Origin: Bacteroidota bacterium
GTDB taxonomy: Bacteria; Bacteroidota; Ignavibacteria; Kapaibacteriales; HRBIN21
DNA length: 64,000 bases
NCBI GenBank assembly: GCA_030550395.1
Contig: JAUQPL010000003.1
Location: 1-64,000 of the forward strand
Reading direction: 5' to 3'
How positions within the stretch are numbered: the first letter of the stretch is position 1; the number at the start of each line of letters is the position of its first letter. Both the position numbers and the translations under genes were made by a program. Below, piece by piece: positions 46,420 to 53,990 of this stretch. A model generated the notes under the pieces. That model had not been told where the DNA came from. It made no database searches and was given only the letters and a program-made list of their open reading frames with translations.

Positions 46420-48769
46420 GGCGCTCCCCACCGGGGAAGAAATGGCGTCCCTCCGCGCCGGCAGCGTAGAGGGTGTTGAAGAGGTTGTTCACCTGTAGGC
46501 GCACTACAAGTTGTTGGAGTCCCAGGAAGTTGGGGATCCCCCATCGGAGGTCCAAATCGGCAACTGTGTAGGGGTCTACAACATTATCCCGGTAGTCGGC
46601 AATCGTTGGGTCGAAAGCTGCGTACTCAGCCAGCCGAGTGCCGAAGTTATCAGAGTAAAAGCGGCCGACATGGCGGAGTGTTAATTGTGCCTGGAGCTGA
46701 CCGTGTTGGTAACGGAGATGTCCGGAAGCCAGGAATTCCGGAAAGCCGGCTACAGGGTTCCCATTCAAAGAGACAGCCGTTCCACGGCTGCTATAATATG
46801 TGTATTCCACGATGCGGTTGCGGCTCAAGGTTGTGGAAAGTCCAGCTATCAGGGAACCCCAGCGAGGATGGGAGAGGAACTGGGCTGCTGCTTCTAACTC
46901 AATCCCGACATGTCGCGTACGAGGAGCATTGCCGTCAATGGGTGCACCGAAGATATCTACGCGCCCGCTTTTGACGAGCTCATCAAAGAACTCCATCCAG
47001 AAGACTCCCACGGAAGCCTGGAGCCAATTGGTCCGGTAGCGCCATCCGAACTCAATATCCAGCATTCGCTCGGGCTTGACTAGTGGCTTAGAGAAATCAT
47101 AGCGGACAATGCCGCCGATGGTGTCGCTTTCGAAGAGTGGTCGCGCGCCAAAGTAAGCGTCTTCGGCTGCATAGAGATTCCGCATCCGAGGCTCGCGAGA
47201 AGTATAGGCGAGCAGCCCGAACAGTTCATGCTCGGCGGTGGGCTTCCAGAGAAGTCCCACTCGGGGGTTGAAGAAAGTATAGCGGATGTCGAACAAGGTG
47301 CCGTTGCCCCAGACGGTATCCCCTGAGCGTGTCAGATAGTATGTGTACCGATTGCCTGCCCGTTCGTTGCGGATGCGATAGCTGTGGTGTACGATTTGCG
47401 CCTCAATGTTAAGCGTGACTTGTGAGGCGAGTTCGTATTGCTCACGGGCAAAGAGGGAGAAGATATCCCGGACGCCTTCGTACTGGTAAATTTTGTACTC
47501 TGGATCAAAGTCTGTGGGAAGCAGTTCAGCGTAGCGGACCTTGCCCCAGTGAACGGAACGATGGAGGCGAATTTCCGTGCCTAGGAGGAGCTCGCCGCTA
47601 GCATGCTTCCAGAGTAGTCGGGGGATCCAGCCACCGTGCTTGTTGCCAACGAATGCTCGAATGATGGCATTGCGCGGGTAGACCGTATCGGGAAGGTCCC
47701 AGCCATATTCCCGCGTAAGGCGGAGAGTCCGGGCATCAGCCCAGGAGCCGTCAAAGTCGAAGAACCCGTCACCAGTGTAGTAGAAGAGCACCGATTTCAG
47801 CTCCAGGTTGGGGCTGATACGCCAATCATTGAGAAGTTCGTAGTGCGGTTGTGAGAAGTTCTCCAACTCCACTGGACGACGTTCCACAGCGAAGCCGATG
47901 CGACGATAAGTGCTATCGTATTCCCACCAGGCATAATTTTTGCGGCGTAGCACAGGGTCCTTGATGTGCTGTTTCGGGATGCCGTAGTAAGTCAGCCCGT
48001 CTGCCAGTGGGCCGCCGAAGATGTTGATCTGGGTGGTGAGGTTTTTGTCAAAGCGGACGCCACTGAGGAAATAGCTGTTCAGTGTTGCCCAGCTCTGGTC
48101 GCGATAGCCCCAAGACTCAATCCGAGCCATGCGTCCGTAGAAGGCATAGCGTTTTTCAATGATTCCCGAGGAGACCTCCAGAGCATACCGTTGGACCGTG
48201 GGCTGAAGATGGGTCTTGGTTGGCGTGCTAAATTGCTGCCAGCCGCTCCCGAGGCTAATGCGCACGAGCCGTTCGGCTAGGAAGTTGGAGGTTGTGATAT
48301 TGATACTTCCGCCGATAGCAGCGGCTCCGTAGTTAATCAAACCTGCACCACGTTGTACCTGGATGGAGCCAACACTGGCAGCCAGATCTGGGAAGTCGAT
48401 CCAGTACACATTGTGGTCTTCGGGATCGTTTTGCGGTACCCCATTGATGAGGACAGCAATACGGCGTTGATCAAAGCCCCGCATGACGAGTGTGGAGTAT
48501 CCAATCTGGTTCCCATTCTGGGACCAGACAAACACGGAGGGGAGGGCATTGAGGAGGGTTGGGAAGTCCTGTGCCGTGTAACGTTGAACAATGCTGGCAC
48601 GCTCCACCTCCGTGAAAGGCACGGGACTTTTTCCTGCCTCGGCCCGGGTCGTTGTGACGGTAACGACTGGTAGTTGGTACAGGCGCGTGGTGTCTTCAGG
48701 AGCTTGTGACAATTGGGCCCACAGATGGGTAGTAACTCCGAAAGCAAGCCAGACAAGGCGGGCACGCAT
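46388..48769 (-). CDS. TonB-dependent receptor under TPP riboswitch control (putative thiamine/precursor uptake)
   Basis: Starting at the ATG with GGAGG 6 bases upstream, 793 residues: signal peptide (VWLAFGVTTHLWA), TonB-box-like LPVVTVTTTRAE, plug domain with VLINGVPQNDPEDHNVYWID and RGAGLINYGAAAIGGSINI, then a large barrel with VNNLFNTLYAAGAEG near the end. The leader carries a TPP riboswitch, so the ligand is very likely thiamine, its phosphate or a pyrimidine/thiazole precursor; sequence alone would not say so. It crosses the outer membrane with TonB energy. No inner-membrane thiamine permease lies beside it. Confidence 0.9.
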   Translation of the reverse strand: MRARLVWLAFGVTTHLWAQLSQAPEDTTRLYQLPVVTVTTTRAEAGKSPVPFTEVERASIVQRYTAQDFPTLLNALPSVFVWSQNGNQIGYSTLVMRGFDQRRIAVLINGVPQNDPEDHNVYWIDFPDLAASVGSIQVQRGAGLINYGAAAIGGSINITTSNFLAERLVRISLGSGWQQFSTPTKTHLQPTVQRYALEVSSGIIEKRYAFYGRMARIESWGYRDQSWATLNSYFLSGVRFDKNLTTQINIFGGPLADGLTYYGIPKQHIKDPVLRRKNYAWWEYDSTYRRIGFAVERRPVELENFSQPHYELLNDWRISPNLELKSVLFYYTGDGFFDFDGSWADARTLRLTREYGWDLPDTVYPRNAIIRAFVGNKHGGWIPRLLWKHASGELLLGTEIRLHRSVHWGKVRYAELLPTDFDPEYKIYQYEGVRDIFSLFAREQYELASQVTLNIEAQIVHHSYRIRNERAGNRYTYYLTRSGDTVWGNGTLFDIRYTFFNPRVGLLWKPTAEHELFGLLAYTSREPRMRNLYAAEDAYFGARPLFESDTIGGIVRYDFSKPLVKPERMLDIEFGWRYRTNWLQASVGVFWMEFFDELVKSGRVDIFGAPIDGNAPRTRHVGIELEAAAQFLSHPRWGSLIAGLSTTLSRNRIVEYTYYSSRGTAVSLNGNPVAGFPEFLASGHLRYQHGQLQAQLTLRHVGRFYSDNFGTRLAEYAAFDPTIADYRDNVVDPYTVADLDLRWGIPNFLGLQQLVVRLQVNNLFNTLYAAGAEGRHFFPGGERLIFLGVDMEL

Positions 48770-48775
48770 AGCAAT

Positions 48776-48819
48776 CCTCCACACGCATTGGTTGGACATA
48801 ACACTGTGCCGTGTGGAGG
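48776..48819 (-). promoter_or_regulatory. Shine-Dalgarno-sequestering hairpin below the TPP riboswitch
   Basis: CCTCCACACG and CGTGTGGAGG form a perfect 10-base-pair stem. The downstream arm contains the GGAGG used by the TonB receptor, so the folded state would block translation. It is the probable expression platform. Confidence 0.75.
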
Positions 48820-48883
48820 TGCTCGTTCAAGAAGGGGGAGGCTTAAGAGAGGAGATACAGCGGGCGGAATATTCTTACCGCTA

Positions 48884-48974
48884 CTCCGTTTTCCCTACGC
48901 CGGCATTACCCGGATCAGGTTCAAAGGGTATCCTCTCAGCCTCGCCCAAAGTGGACGAAGCACCCCCAACGGAG
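48884..48974 (-). ncRNA. TPP (thiamine pyrophosphate) riboswitch
   Basis: The minus strand shows the THI element: closing stem CTCCGTT/AACGGAG, GGGGGTGC, the core GGCTGAGAGGATACCC, then TTTGAACCTGATCCGGGTAA and TGCCGGCGTAGGGA. All conserved pyrimidine- and diphosphate-sensing parts are present. It lies 115 bases before the TonB receptor start and controls that gene. Confidence 0.97.
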
Positions 48975-48980
48975 CAGTTG

Positions 48981-48988
48981 CAAAATTA
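48981..48988 (-). promoter_or_regulatory. Candidate -7 element of the riboswitch transcript
   Basis: Minus-strand TAATTTTG fits TAnnTTTG and ends 7 bases before the first riboswitch base, exactly where transcription would begin. No -33 TTG at the usual distance. Confidence 0.6.
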
Positions 48989-49003
48989 GAGCTCTTGTCG
49001 GAC

Positions 49004-49480
49004 TCACAGCGTGAAGCGAAGTCCAGCTCCTAAGACCAATTGATCGTAGTTGCCCAAGACGAGCTTGAGTTCTCCAAAAACAGCGCCGAAATCTACCCGG
49101 GTCTCACCCCCGATACCAATGTTAAGTCCGATTTCAGAGTTGCTTACCGTTCCAATACCGATGTCCACGCTCTCATGGGCATATTGGAGTCCGAAAATCC
49201 CATAGAGGCGCTGTTGGCGTCGGTGCTCATAGAAGATGTAGTGTGCATTACCGTCCAACGTCCAGAAGGTGTGCCCAGACTTCGTGAAGAAGTAGTGAAA
49301 GTTCGTCACGAAGCGGAGCGTAGGAGAGGTAAGATAGTAGCCCCGCAGGTCTACTCCTGGCTTTTCGATGTCGCTTCCGTAGCAGAGCCCGATTCCAAGG
49401 TTGAGCTGAGCTTGACCGGGAGAGGCGGCCAAGAAACAGAAAAACAGAGAAGCTGTCACCCACAGGCTCCGTAGGTACAT
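49004..49480 (-). CDS. Small outer membrane beta-barrel protein
   Basis: A 158-residue exported protein with a signal peptide (LWVTASLFFCFLAASPGQAQ) and alternating amphipathic strands ending LGAGLRFTL. This resembles eight-stranded OmpX/OmpW-type barrels; I do not recognise a specific family. It lies upstream of the TPP riboswitch but has a separate transcript start from it, so a link with thiamine is not shown. Confidence 0.65.
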   Translation of the reverse strand: MYLRSLWVTASLFFCFLAASPGQAQLNLGIGLCYGSDIEKPGVDLRGYYLTSPTLRFVTNFHYFFTKSGHTFWTLDGNAHYIFYEHRRQQRLYGIFGLQYAHESVDIGIGTVSNSEIGLNIGIGGETRVDFGAVFGELKLVLGNYDQLVLGAGLRFTL

Positions 49481-49522: not shown

Positions 49523-50659
49523 CTATGGACGTACGATACGAGGTCGTTGATGTACAAAGAAGGCCTTGAGGTGTTCAGCAACATAACGGATTTGGGTTTC
49601 CGTTAACTCCGGATACAAGGGGAGTGAGAGCAACTCATGTTGATATTGCCATGCCACAGGAAACTCATCGGGATGATGTCCGAAGCGACGGTAAGCGGGT
49701 ACGAAAGGAAGCGCACGTGGGTAATGAACCTGTGTCTGGATGCCCTGGGAGGTAAGGTAATGCTGGAGTTCATCCCGACGAGGTGTCCGGATAACGAAAA
49801 GGTGGAAAACATGGGTGCAGCCTGGACGGATGTGGGGAAGAGTGATTTCCTCAACGTCAGCTAAGAGCTCACTGTAGAGCTGGGCGTGTTCTGCTCGCTG
49901 ACGATTCCACTGATGGATATAGCGCAGCTTGACAGAGAGGATAGCTGCTTGAAGTCCGTCTAGCCGGCTATTTATACCTTCAATCTCATGTTCGTACTTG
50001 GTCAGCGAGCCATGGTTGGTGAAGATGCGGATAAAGTGAGCCAAGGCATCGTCGTTGGTAAGAATAGCTCCGGCATCGCCGTAAGCACCCAAATTTTTGC
50101 TCGGGTAAAAGCTGAACGCTGCTATTGTGCCGAAAGTGCCGATGAGCTGCCCATGGTACTGGGCGAAATGTGCCTGAGCACAGTCCTCCAGTACTATGAG
50201 GCTGTAACGACGGGCTAAGTTCAGAAGCTTCTCCATATCGGCAGGCTGTCCGTAGAGATGAACGGGGATGATAACGCGTGTGCGCTCTGTGACGCAGTGT
50301 TCAGCGTGGCAGGGGTCAAGGGTGTAATAGTCTGGCTCGATATCTACGAAGACTGGTCGGGCGCCAAGGTGGGAGACTGTTTCCGCCGTTGAAATCCAGG
50401 TAAGAGCCGGTACTAATACCTCATCGCCAGGTCCGACACCGAGGGCTCGCAGCGCAACGTAAAGAGCGTCCGTCCCATTTCCTACCCCAATGCAGTGGCG
50501 GACTCCATGGGCTTTAGCATATGCTTGCTCGAACGCTTCAACGTATTTGCCGCGGACGAATGCTGCTTCCTCTAGTACGGTGGCAATAGCAGCGTCAATT
50601 TCTACCTTCAGTTGCCGGTACTGAGCCCGTAAGTCCACAAAGGGCACTTGGATTCCCAT
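49523..50659 (-). CDS. DegT/DnrJ/EryC1-family sugar aminotransferase
   Basis: From the ATG at 50659, 378 residues: VGNGTDALYVALRALGVGPG, LEDCAQAHFAQY, and the PLP lysine in SFYPSKNLGAYGDAGA. It transaminates a keto-sugar nucleotide (WbpE, FdtB or ArnB-like). Coupling to an acyltransferase of the WbpD/FdtC type (start and stop overlap) points to a 3-acetamido sugar on a UDP or dTDP carrier. A longer reading upstream overlaps the acyltransferase and is rejected. Confidence 0.9.
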   Translation of the reverse strand: MGIQVPFVDLRAQYRQLKVEIDAAIATVLEEAAFVRGKYVEAFEQAYAKAHGVRHCIGVGNGTDALYVALRALGVGPGDEVLVPALTWISTAETVSHLGARPVFVDIEPDYYTLDPCHAEHCVTERTRVIIPVHLYGQPADMEKLLNLARRYSLIVLEDCAQAHFAQYHGQLIGTFGTIAAFSFYPSKNLGAYGDAGAILTNDDALAHFIRIFTNHGSLTKYEHEIEGINSRLDGLQAAILSVKLRYIHQWNRQRAEHAQLYSELLADVEEITLPHIRPGCTHVFHLFVIRTPRRDELQHYLTSQGIQTQVHYPRALPFVPAYRRFGHHPDEFPVAWQYQHELLSLPLYPELTETQIRYVAEHLKAFFVHQRPRIVRP

Positions 50660-51144
50660 TAGCTTTCTCCTCGCTGTGGTAGTTCCCGAAGCTTCCGGGC
50701 GGGATTGCCAGCATAGATACCCGGGGTCAAAATGTCTTTCGTAACGACGGAGCCTGCCCCGATGACGACATCGTCTACAATGCGCACAGGGAGGATTGTT
50801 GCATTGCTTCCAATAGCAACGCGGTTCCCTATCGTTGTCGGTTTCCAAAACTCCCGCCGCGGAGCCGGGCCACCCGTTTGGAATGTGTCGTTGATAAACA
50901 TGACCCCATGTCCAATGAAGCAGTCTTCACCAATGGTGACGAGCTCGCAGATGAAGGTGTGGGATTGCACGCGCGTGCGCTTGCCAATGCGGACCCCGCG
51001 CTGGATTTCAACGAACGGACCGATGAAGCAATCGTCTTCAATGAAGCATTCGTAGAGGTTGACGGGTTCAACGATGGTAACGTTGCGCCCAAAGGTTACG
51101 TCACGGATTTGCGCCTGCCATCGGATGGGTTCATTCTTAGCCAT
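50659..51144 (-). CDS. Hexapeptide-repeat sugar N-acetyltransferase (WbpD/FdtC-like)
   Basis: A 161-residue left-handed beta-helix protein: FGRNVTIVEPVNLYECFIED, GVRIGKRTRVQSHTF, VTIGEDCFIGHGVMFIND, and C-terminal VIGAGSVVTKDI-PG-YAGNPAR. It would acetylate the amine made by the aminotransferase next to it. The Asn-Asp pair in FINDTFQTG is the usual active-site entry of this branch. Confidence 0.88.
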   Translation of the reverse strand: MAKNEPIRWQAQIRDVTFGRNVTIVEPVNLYECFIEDDCFIGPFVEIQRGVRIGKRTRVQSHTFICELVTIGEDCFIGHGVMFINDTFQTGGPAPRREFWKPTTIGNRVAIGSNATILPVRIVDDVVIGAGSVVTKDILTPGIYAGNPARKLRELPQRGES

Positions 51145-51152
51145 AGAACGCT

Positions 51153-52226
51153 TCAGGTCAGTGGCACTACTTGTGCAACGGCGCGGAGGACGTCTTCAAC
51201 AGTTAAGCCATCCCCGCCTTGGGCGCAAAGGACGATTGCCGCAGGGGTATAAGGTCCAATGTGGGCAGGATCCGTTCGCAAGAAGAGAGCAATGACCGGG
51301 ACGCCGACAGCGGCCGCCAGGTGCATGATGCCAGAGTCATTGCTAATGAGGAGAAGGCACCGCTGGAGTAGAGCGGCTGTTTCAGGGAGGTCAGTCTTAC
51401 CCGTGAAATCTTCTACTGCCTTTCCCAGAGTAGCGCGCAGTCGGGCAGTAAGCGACCGTTCCTCGGGACCACCGAAGAGAACAAGGTGGTAGCCCGATTG
51501 TTGGAGGCGCTGCGCAAGGGAGAGGAAACCTTCTATTGGCCATCGCTTTTCTGCACGTCCACTGCCTGGATGGAGGGCGATTCGGGGAATATCTCCGGGT
51601 AAGAGCTGAGCCGCACGACGGCGTGCCGATTCCGGGACAGGATACGTAGGGTAGAAACTGCCCTCAGGGATGTCTTCGCCTACAGTGCGGAGGAGATCAA
51701 GGTTCAGCTCTACCCGATGGCGCTGTGGAGGAGCGGCTACAAGGCAGTGGTAGAGGCATGAAAGATCCCGACCCGACCGTATGCCGGAGTTGTACACATG
51801 CTTGAGTCGCAGCTGAGCTCTGCTGGCAACGGCGATGAGGGAATGTCGGATAGTGTTTGCCGGCTGAGCCCCTAAGAAGACGTCGGCTCGGAAGCGCCAG
51901 CATTGCCAGAGAAGGTGGATAAACGCCGGCAGCGAGCTCCACCCCTCACGGTAGGAGAGGACAGAAAGCTGAGGAAAAGGCAGAAAAAGAGAGCGGAGAT
52001 GCGCCCGGGTGACCACGGCAAGTTGCAATTCCGGAAGTCGCTGGCGGAGCACTTGGAGGAGCGGAAGTGCCATGATGGCATCACCGATACCGGCTCCGCA
52101 GAGGAGTAAACACCGCCGTGCCCGTTGCCATCGCTGGCGGAGCTCCTCTGCCGATAGAGCTTCAGCACGGAACCATCGGCAGAGGAGGGAGCAGAGGAAC
52201 CTTCGTACAGCTGCGCTCAGAGACAT
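51153..52226 (-). CDS. Glycosyltransferase family 9 (heptosyltransferase-like)
   Basis: A 357-residue GT-B protein: CGAGIGDAIMALPLLQVLRQ at the start, IALHPGSGRAEKRWP and the nucleotide-sugar block SNDSGIMHLAAAVGVPVIAL. GT9 enzymes add heptose or related sugars to the lipopolysaccharide core. It lies between an amino-sugar pair and a GT4 enzyme, so this block likely builds outer core or O-antigen. Confidence 0.87.
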   Translation of the reverse strand: MSLSAAVRRFLCSLLCRWFRAEALSAEELRQRWQRARRCLLLCGAGIGDAIMALPLLQVLRQRLPELQLAVVTRAHLRSLFLPFPQLSVLSYREGWSSLPAFIHLLWQCWRFRADVFLGAQPANTIRHSLIAVASRAQLRLKHVYNSGIRSGRDLSCLYHCLVAAPPQRHRVELNLDLLRTVGEDIPEGSFYPTYPVPESARRRAAQLLPGDIPRIALHPGSGRAEKRWPIEGFLSLAQRLQQSGYHLVLFGGPEERSLTARLRATLGKAVEDFTGKTDLPETAALLQRCLLLISNDSGIMHLAAAVGVPVIALFLRTDPAHIGPYTPAAIVLCAQGGDGLTVEDVLRAVAQVVPLT

Positions 52227-53386
52227 AGCTCGCTGATAGGCTTCCGTTGTGCAAGGCCATTGAACAACTGCTGCAAGCGGGGACAGTTGTGCCGGAGACC
52301 ATGCTGTTTTTCTGCATATTCCCGAGCTCGTAAGCCGACGGTAGCGCGATGCTCGGGGTTGTCAAGGAAGGATTCCAGCGCTTGTTGCAGTCGTGCAGTA
52401 TTGCCATCTGCACAGATTCCAATCCCTTCCCGTCGGAGAACTCCGCCAGGATCAACCCACAAAGAGACCACAGGGGTTTCCCGGAGCCACGCTTGGACGA
52501 AAGTGTTGGGGAAACCTTCATAGAAGGCGGTATGCAGAAGAACCCATGCTCGCTCCAGAAGTTCTTGGGCTTCCTCTGGGGAGAGCGCGCCGAAGAGACG
52601 AACATTTGAGGGGAGGCGCTTCCATCGGTGAAGTTCGCGTAGCTGCTCTGGACGAGTGGAGCCAGTGACGAAGAAAAATTGTATCCCACTGCGTTCGTAG
52701 GAAGCAGCAATTTTCAGGGCAAGTCCAAGCTGTGCGTGAGGTCGGTAATTGTGAATCCACACAACCAGAGGTGTAGGCTCTTTGCGAGCAGGACGATGAA
52801 GCTCAGGGTGGAGCGTGGGGACTACGAGACTTTCACGTCCGTAGCGACGGCGGAGGAGTTCCTGTTGCCCCTTGTGTTGGGTAAAAAGGTACGGCGCCTT
52901 ACGCAGAGTCTTATGGAGTTGAACGTCTGACCACAGGGCGTAAGGAAGTAGGAGCCATGAACGCCAGCGGGGGTGCCGATGGCGGATGAAGGTGTAGGTT
53001 GTGGGAAGAAATTTCTGGACGGTGAGGTCGGAGGAGAGAGCGAAAACATAGGGAAGCTTGCGTCGGAGAGCAAAGTCCAACACAACCCCACTTTCCTGGA
53101 GTATCCCCCAGCCTCGTTGGTAGAGAACATCAGGGTTGAGTTCTGCCAAGAGGGTTTCCACCTGTTGCCGAGGGACGCAAAAGCCATTGGGGTAGAGCGG
53201 AATCCAATAGATAAGGCGTCCGGGTGCTTCCAGCTCTTGTCCATACTTACCCGTCAGGCTATGGCAGAGATGGACAACTTCCCAGCCCCCTGCTGCCAGA
53301 GCTTCGCCCAAGTATCGCAGCTGTAACTCAACTCCGCCGGCGTGTTCACTCCAATGGCGATGTCCCGCAATGCAGAGAAGGGGCAT
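52217..53386 (-). CDS. Glycosyltransferase family 4
   Basis: From the ATG at 53386 (MPLLCIAGHRHWSEHAGGVE), 389 residues with the N-terminal GGVELQLRYLGEALAAGG and C-terminal E-x7-E-like region in HTAFYEGFPNTFVQAWLRET-P and ADGNTARLQQALESFLDN. GT-B retaining fold; sugar donor unknown. A longer reading overlapping the TrmH gene is rejected. Confidence 0.85.
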   Translation of the reverse strand: MPLLCIAGHRHWSEHAGGVELQLRYLGEALAAGGWEVVHLCHSLTGKYGQELEAPGRLIYWIPLYPNGFCVPRQQVETLLAELNPDVLYQRGWGILQESGVVLDFALRRKLPYVFALSSDLTVQKFLPTTYTFIRHRHPRWRSWLLLPYALWSDVQLHKTLRKAPYLFTQHKGQQELLRRRYGRESLVVPTLHPELHRPARKEPTPLVVWIHNYRPHAQLGLALKIAASYERSGIQFFFVTGSTRPEQLRELHRWKRLPSNVRLFGALSPEEAQELLERAWVLLHTAFYEGFPNTFVQAWLRETPVVSLWVDPGGVLRREGIGICADGNTARLQQALESFLDNPEHRATVGLRAREYAEKQHGLRHNCPRLQQLFNGLAQRKPISELCL

Positions 53387-53393
53387 GGGAAGC

Positions 53394-53990
53394 CTATCGC
53401 TGGAGCCATTCCTGAAGCAACTTCTGGAAAAGCTCTGGAGGTAGTCGCTGGTGGTTATACAATCCGGCATTCCACCGTTGCCGAAACGCCTCGTAGAGAG
53501 TGACAGCACAAGCTACGGAAATATTCAAGCTCTGTACCATGCCGACCTGAGGAATCCAGCAAATTCCATCGGCAAGGCATCGGGCTTCCTCGGAGACGCC
53601 ACGATGCTCGTTTCCGAAAACCAGCGCTGTCGGCTGCGTAAAGTCGAGGGTGAAGATATCCTCTGCCTGTGCTGTCAGCGCAGTTGCCCAGATACGGAAT
53701 CCCTGCTCCCGGAGAAGGGTATAGCAGCGCGATACGTCTGTATGGCGCTGCAAAATAAGCCATTTGTAGGCACTGCCTGAGGTTCGGTGGCTGATCTCCG
53801 GGAACGACTCCACGGTATAGAGCAGGTGAACCTCTAACAGGCCGACAGCGTCGCACGTGCGCAGAACAGCAGAGACGTTGTGAGGGTCGTGGACGTTCTC
53901 TAACACCACTGTTAAATCCGGTTGTCTGCGGCGAAGGACCTCCTCAATCCGCTGTCGGCGGTGCTGGGTGCGCTCCTGTCCAGAGGTCAT
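53394..53990 (-). CDS. TrmH/SpoU-family tRNA/rRNA 2'-O-methyltransferase
   Basis: A 198-residue SPOUT protein: VLENVHDPHNVSAVLRTCDA (motif 1, Asn), LVFGNEHRGVSEEA (motif 2) and IPQVGMVQSLNISVACAV (motif 3). TrmH methylates G18 of tRNA; length and the DPHNVSAVLRTCDA pattern favour TrmH. Start overlaps the nuoD stop (ATGA), which is unusual company. Confidence 0.88.
   Translation of the reverse strand: MTSGQERTQHRRQRIEEVLRRRQPDLTVVLENVHDPHNVSAVLRTCDAVGLLEVHLLYTVESFPEISHRTSGSAYKWLILQRHTDVSRCYTLLREQGFRIWATALTAQAEDIFTLDFTQPTALVFGNEHRGVSEEARCLADGICWIPQVGMVQSLNISVACAVTLYEAFRQRWNAGLYNHQRLPPELFQKLLQEWLQR

Follow-up and report, generated by a model that had tools for sequence, protein, structure and literature searches.

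The window, the stretch of 64,000 nucleotides analysed here, comes from a bacterial genome of 1.94 Mb (99.3% complete), which was compared with relatives among Candidatus Kapabacteria and HRbin21-type genomes. On its minus strand, a gene for a TonB-dependent outer-membrane receptor is preceded by a leader that carries a promoter box, a TPP riboswitch aptamer and a hairpin containing the Shine-Dalgarno (SD) sequence (Table 1). The receptor gene stands alone, and the heparinase-like gene downstream of it is convergent, on the plus strand. Just upstream, on the minus strand at 49523-53509, aminotransferase (DegT/DnrJ/EryC1) and glycosyltransferase genes probably form a surface polysaccharide cluster.

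Table 1. Features of the receptor gene and of its leader in the window
Feature	Position	Strand	Basis
Predicted thiamine receptor of the outer membrane, TonB-dependent, 793 aa	46388..48769	-	Pfam, clade, TPP linkage
3′ arm of the hairpin, holding the Shine-Dalgarno GGAGG	48776..48785	-	Sequence; SD unpaired 0.00-0.01 with the aptamer forced
Conserved hairpin-loop motif AUGUCCAAC (WUGUYNMAY)	48791..48799	-	27/47 leaders
Dual-use linker strand CGAGCACCUCCACACGGC, complementary to both the aptamer 5′ core and the SD arm	48808..48825	-	Duplexes, swap tests, folding
5′ arm of the SD-sequestering hairpin, CCUCCACACG	48810..48819	-	Sequence; swap test of linker with RBS, p 0.0002
Toehold UCCUCUC..GCCUC in the linker, complementary to the aptamer	48838..48853	-	Duplex; kept across the genus
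TPP riboswitch aptamer (THI element, RF00059)	48874..48977	-	74.3 bits, sole copy in the genome
Aptamer segment GAGGCUGAGAGGA, open to first invasion by the upstream linker	48931..48943	-	Duplex; complement kept in five congeneric leaders
Aptamer 5′ core UCCGUUGGGGGUGCUUC (P1-P2 5′ strands), predicted antisequestor partner in the TPP-free state	48957..48973	-	Duplex, swap test
-7 promoter box TAATTTTG, Bacteroidota type	48981..48988	-	Sequence; recurrence in related leaders

The RF00059 covariance model matches minus-strand positions 48977-48874 over its full length (model positions 1-105, E 9e-13). The score of 74.3 bits lies well above the gathering score of 54.3, in keeping with the complete THI element of the original prediction. 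The alignments contain the conserved TPP-binding core (CUGAGA, ACCUGAU and GCGUAGGGAA), the positions of which are invariant across 30 genomes. Stem P1 pairs 48977-48968 with 48890-48881 over 10 bp, including one G-U. The RF00059 search of the source genome found this single TPP element.

The box TAATTTTG (48988-48981) had been proposed as the element's own -7 promoter. Of 34 related leaders, 25 have the same type of box, TAnnTTTG, 8-12 nt 5′ of the aptamer, and 26 have it at most 34 nt 5′ of the aptamer, where shuffled sequences give an expectation of 0.8. Because of this recurrence, the promoter reading is sound. Transcription would start a few bases before P1, or at P1. By eye, no -33 TTTG could be made out 5′ of the box, and a sigma-70 scan of the leader gave no match, this consensus not being expected to fit the phylum.

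Downstream of the aptamer, CCTCCACACG (48819-48810) and CGTGTGGAGG (48785-48776) form a 10-bp stem without mismatch on the minus strand and enclose a loop of 24 nt. The 3′ arm contains the GGAGG of the receptor gene (48780-48776), and the start codon ATG is at 48769. The perfect SD-sequestering hairpin of the original prediction is therefore present as described, and its separation from the aptamer, given there as about 65 bases, was measured at about 65 nt.

An upstream ATG at 48799 (minus strand) lies in frame inside the hairpin loop and would extend the receptor by 10 residues; it is without SD, and its frame is not common to about half of the relatives. The loop also carries the motif WUGUYNMAY, which occurs in 27 of 47 Kapabacteria-type leaders, against 1.4 in shuffles, and in none of the 30 leaders of terminator type. 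Where it occurs in Kapabacteria leaders, its distance to the start codon is mostly 22-31 nt. That the motif supplies a start codon, for the receptor or for a leader peptide, was rejected as a general explanation, 14 of the 27 occurrences being out of frame and 7 reaching a stop codon.

For a signal to pass from the aptamer to the hairpin, an alternative pairing had been predicted, the partner of which was left unnamed. It was found between the linker strand 48825-48808 and the aptamer 5′ core 48973-48957, with a duplex energy of -24.9 kcal/mol compared to a mean of -16.6 for dinucleotide-shuffled sequences (p = 0.01). The rival SD hairpin is nearly equal in energy, at -24.5 kcal/mol. A further duplex, of -19.7 kcal/mol, joins the upstream linker segment 48853-48838 to 48943-48931 in the aptamer. 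Two mutually exclusive helices, one predicted to free the SD and the other to hide it, are present in the leader, the picture being less clean in truncated equilibrium folds.

Folding with and without an aptamer constraint, a check put forward with the original prediction, bears this out. With the aptamer forced, the probability of the SD being unpaired is 0.00-0.01; without constraint it ranges from 0.06 to 0.78 depending on the position. Equilibrium folding of the leader ending at the start codon gave a partial switch in the window, with the SD unpaired at 0.02-0.36 in the free state, and no switching in two congeners. As these truncated leaders switch only partly at equilibrium, the ON state would depend on co-transcriptional timing or on downstream sequence. 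The fold without TPP is favoured over the aptamer-forced fold by about 14 kcal/mol. This gap exceeds the repayment expected from TPP binding alone, and we infer that control must be kinetic and co-transcriptional. In folds of nascent lengths, P1 is present up to about 125 nt and linker invasion is seen by 140 nt. The antisequestor reaches 0.88 at 175-197 nt, and the SD arm is complete only at 202 nt.

The pairings were compared between species by a swap test, in which the aptamer 5′ core, linker and RBS segments of each leader were paired either with their own partners or with those of other species. The set comprised 47 Kapabacteria-type leaders, and phylogeny was ignored. For the aptamer 5′ core with the linker, own pairs gave -16.2 and swapped pairs -15.1 (p = 0.0004 with 47 leaders, p = 0.001 when thinned to 35). 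For the linker with the RBS, the values were -13.9 and -9.3 (p = 0.0002, 47 leaders). P1, used as a positive control, gave p = 0.002, and p = 0.09 when thinned. Control pairs outside the model gave no signal in the 47 leaders (p = 0.9 for the aptamer 3′ part with the linker, p = 0.15 for the aptamer 5′ part with the RBS). The antisense strand ends 30-45 nt 5′ of the start codon in 39 of the 47 leaders. These comparisons show both of the predicted, mutually exclusive helices covarying across the leaders.

The -7 box, the aptamer, the linker elements and the hairpin are kept in five genomes of the genus, that of the window included; in one of the five the -7 box reads TAATTTCG. At the level of the order, a TPP element was found in 58 of 61 genomes, nearly always exactly one. 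It lies just 5′ of the receptor in all 79 relatives with an intact 5′ end (79/79). The 50 whole genomes of receptor relatives that were searched all gave an RF00059 match (50/50), in single copy bar one exception. Chance is excluded by the retention of the leader in the five congeneric genomes and by the TPP element 5′ of all 79 receptor relatives.

The receptor matches the Pfam models Plug (PF07715, 57 bits) and TonB_dep_Rec_b-barrel (PF00593, 108 bits). Among the NCBIfam family models, the best matches are far under their cut-offs and only a generic TonB receptor is seen. A BtuB identity was rejected, as the NCBIfam BtuB models, which have cut-offs of 836 and 600, gave scores of 45.3 and 41.1 bits respectively. 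No relative of solved structure was found by sequence at E 0.001. Compared with the window receptor over the shared half, TPP-linked receptors of several Bacteroidota classes reach at least 115 bits, as opposed to at most 70 bits for other TonB receptors, drawn from its own and sister genomes together with E. coli BtuB, FepA and FhuA. In a tree of 35 proteins, 24 TPP-linked receptors form one group with a support of 100/100, some of the outside branches being long. A B12 or siderophore receptor was thus ruled out by the BtuB model scores, by direct comparison and by a placement in the tree apart from BtuB, FepA and FhuA. The clustering agrees with the vitamin specificity of the original prediction, and neither of the two outcomes that would have spoken against that prediction, a covariance score under threshold or a grouping with siderophore or cobalamin receptors, was obtained. 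The accompanying view that sequence alone would not assign the receptor held for the generic family models, which fail, and not for the comparison with TPP-linked receptors, which points to thiamine.

The thiamine supply of the bacterium was examined from gene content. ThiC was not found in 13 genomes of the order, that of the window included. ThiE/TenI was not found in the window genome and scores above cut-off in only one of 61 order genomes. Thiamine diphosphokinase is present in 12 of the 13 genomes, again including that of the window. The source bacterium appears unable to make vitamin B1, as judged from ThiC and ThiE. The sole order genome with ThiE above cut-off, G014, also has ThiC, ThiD, ThiG, ThiH and ThiF-like genes, all of which, ThiE excepted, were named from sequence with no family scan. 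No other member of the order was found to have a thiamine biosynthesis cluster. Two TPP elements lie upstream of thiC in G014 (L170, G014:C71:74000-90000), and it has no receptor orthologue. With no ThiC or ThiE found in the window genome, and with a thiamine diphosphokinase encoded there, the cargo of the receptor is likely to be thiamine itself. In many Ignavibacteria-type relatives, the receptor operon consists of the receptor, thiamine diphosphokinase, then a sodium:solute symporter or a PnuC-type transporter.

PnuT had been expected as the inner-membrane partner, under a similar element elsewhere in the genome. This was not borne out: PnuT is absent from the window genome, which has no second TPP element. 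Across the 61 order genomes, 22 have PnuT-type genes, 35 have strong homologues of the operon-linked symporter and none has both. The four with neither are the prototroph G014, two genomes that are 86% complete and one that is 93% complete. The exclusion gives a Fisher p of 7e-13 with phylogeny ignored, and both kinds occur within one family, f9. Because PnuT and the symporter exclude each other across the order, the sodium:solute symporter is predicted to be the inner-membrane thiamine carrier. In the window genome it is encoded at G000:C14:224665-226029 (L171:6627-8039), among unrelated neighbours, with no riboswitch and unlinked to the receptor.

A carrier of this kind invites comparison with ThiV of SAR11, an HMP carrier of the SSS family that is controlled by a TPP element (PMC11452348). 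By description, the two are alike in being SSS carriers of a thiamine-related compound, predicted here, with a tie to TPP (PMC11452348). ThiV therefore offers a precedent for TPP-regulated HMP uptake (PMC11452348), and the SSS membership of the carrier predicted here would suit a receptor for the uptake of HMP or a similar thiamine precursor, or of another nutrient, with TPP merely as the signal. Unlike riboswitch-controlled ThiV, however, the symporter of the window genome is unlinked, and the presence of thiamine diphosphokinase without ThiE speaks for thiamine. With ThiE not found here, nor above cut-off in 60 of the 61 order genomes, joining HMP to the thiazole by the usual enzyme would be impossible, and HMP uptake is disfavoured on this ground. 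Moreover, thiamine diphosphokinase, which uses thiamine, is present in the genome and sits in the receptor operon of relatives. Import of a precursor or other nutrient is accordingly quite unlikely, and thiamine is retained as the probable cargo.

A translational OFF switch with an antisequestor is well supported by the predicted pairings and their covariation. In the absence of TPP, the linker segment 48853-48838 would invade the aptamer first by pairing with 48943-48931. Next, and ahead of transcription of the SD arm, 48825-48808 would pair with the 5′ core of the aptamer (48973-48957), which would leave GGAGG accessible and allow the receptor to be made. If TPP bound the nascent aptamer, the 5′ core would be locked in P1-P2 and the linker strand freed; this strand and the SD arm would then pair, so that GGAGG would be hidden and the receptor repressed. 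The receptor would take thiamine across the outer membrane; passage through the inner membrane would probably fall to the unlinked sodium:solute symporter, and thiamine diphosphokinase would convert the imported thiamine to TPP.

In many Ignavibacteria, Melioribacter and KSB1 relatives, switching may instead occur by transcription termination, as a G+C-rich hairpin, with a T run after it, lies between the aptamer and the receptor start codon. Such a terminator-like arrangement was found in 30 of 91 scored leaders, nearly all of them outside the near group, and nearly all Kapabacteria leaders are without it. No intrinsic terminator was found after the aptamer in a scan of 48700-49050, so that the window leader does not belong to the transcription-terminating class. 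Its hairpin precedes a start codon, not a T run, and in the Kapabacteria leaders the linker covaries with the RBS instead. Termination in place of RBS hiding is thus very improbable here; the receptor family appears to have switched between transcriptional and translational control during its history.

The folds of some congeneric leaders, with the hairpin present in both states at equilibrium, would also suit an aptamer that is a relic, a permanent hairpin and a constitutively low level of receptor. This is scarcely credible, however, given that the aptamer, the linker antisense strand and the RBS covary over many genera and that the binding core is invariant in 30 genomes. It is a serious possibility, if not the favoured one, that TPP also lowers the mRNA through Rho or RNase after translation stops, the translational block being part of the effect, as the TPP riboswitch of E. 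coli tbpA acts both ways (PMC11487190). The translational control by TPP that was originally proposed is upheld by the covarying exclusive helices and by the hiding of the SD when the aptamer is forced. The leader is thus very probably a TPP riboswitch of the translational OFF type that controls a TonB receptor for thiamine, and its host a Kapabacteria-type bacterium auxotrophic for thiamine. A more far-reaching proposal, that the WUGUYNMAY motif is a second, unrecognised input to the switch (through the ribosome, a protein or a tertiary contact) and, jointly, that the B1 supply of the whole order hangs on one riboswitch-controlled receptor and on a symporter replacing PnuT as the inner-membrane thiamine carrier, is doubtful.

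TPP-controlled TonB receptors are known in Bacteroides, as the original prediction stated for Bacteroidota, the precedent being OMthi (BT2390) of B. thetaiotaomicron (Costliow and Degnan 2017, PMC5613172). By description, the window receptor is alike, a TonB-dependent receptor under a TPP element (PMC5613172). As in gut Bacteroidetes, the receptor operons of relatives hold a thiamine-pyrophosphate-making enzyme and a PnuT-type transporter (PMC5613172). Unlike B. thetaiotaomicron, which makes thiamine and uses PnuT, the window genome yielded no ThiC, ThiE or PnuT (PMC5613172). The closest parallel for the switch is E. coli tbpA, where a TPP-free anti-P1 stem disrupts the aptamer and frees the SD, and TPP restores P1 and hides the SD (PMC11487190). 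The predicted freeing of the SD by a TPP-free anti-P1 pairing is common to both, whereas the tbpA riboswitch controls an ABC transporter (PMC11487190). In the window, unlike tbpA, a single linker strand is antisense to the 5′ strands of P1 and P2 and is itself the anti-SD, and an additional invading segment lies upstream in the linker.

The type of control is therefore already known; what is added here is an expression platform resolved for the group, a receptor clade and the prediction of a symporter. The mode of action of Bacteroidetes TPP elements has been stated to be uncertain (PMC5613172), and the present model sets out, in full and in testable form, a translational switch for a TPP element of the Bacteroidota group. 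Linkage to the riboswitch defines a phylum-wide thiamine receptor family that is nameless in current family models. Two further predictions are open to testing: reliance of the whole order on vitamin B1 from outside, and a thiamine carrier coupled to sodium. The predicted B1 dependence and carrier would aid the cultivation of these largely uncultured and little-studied bacteria.
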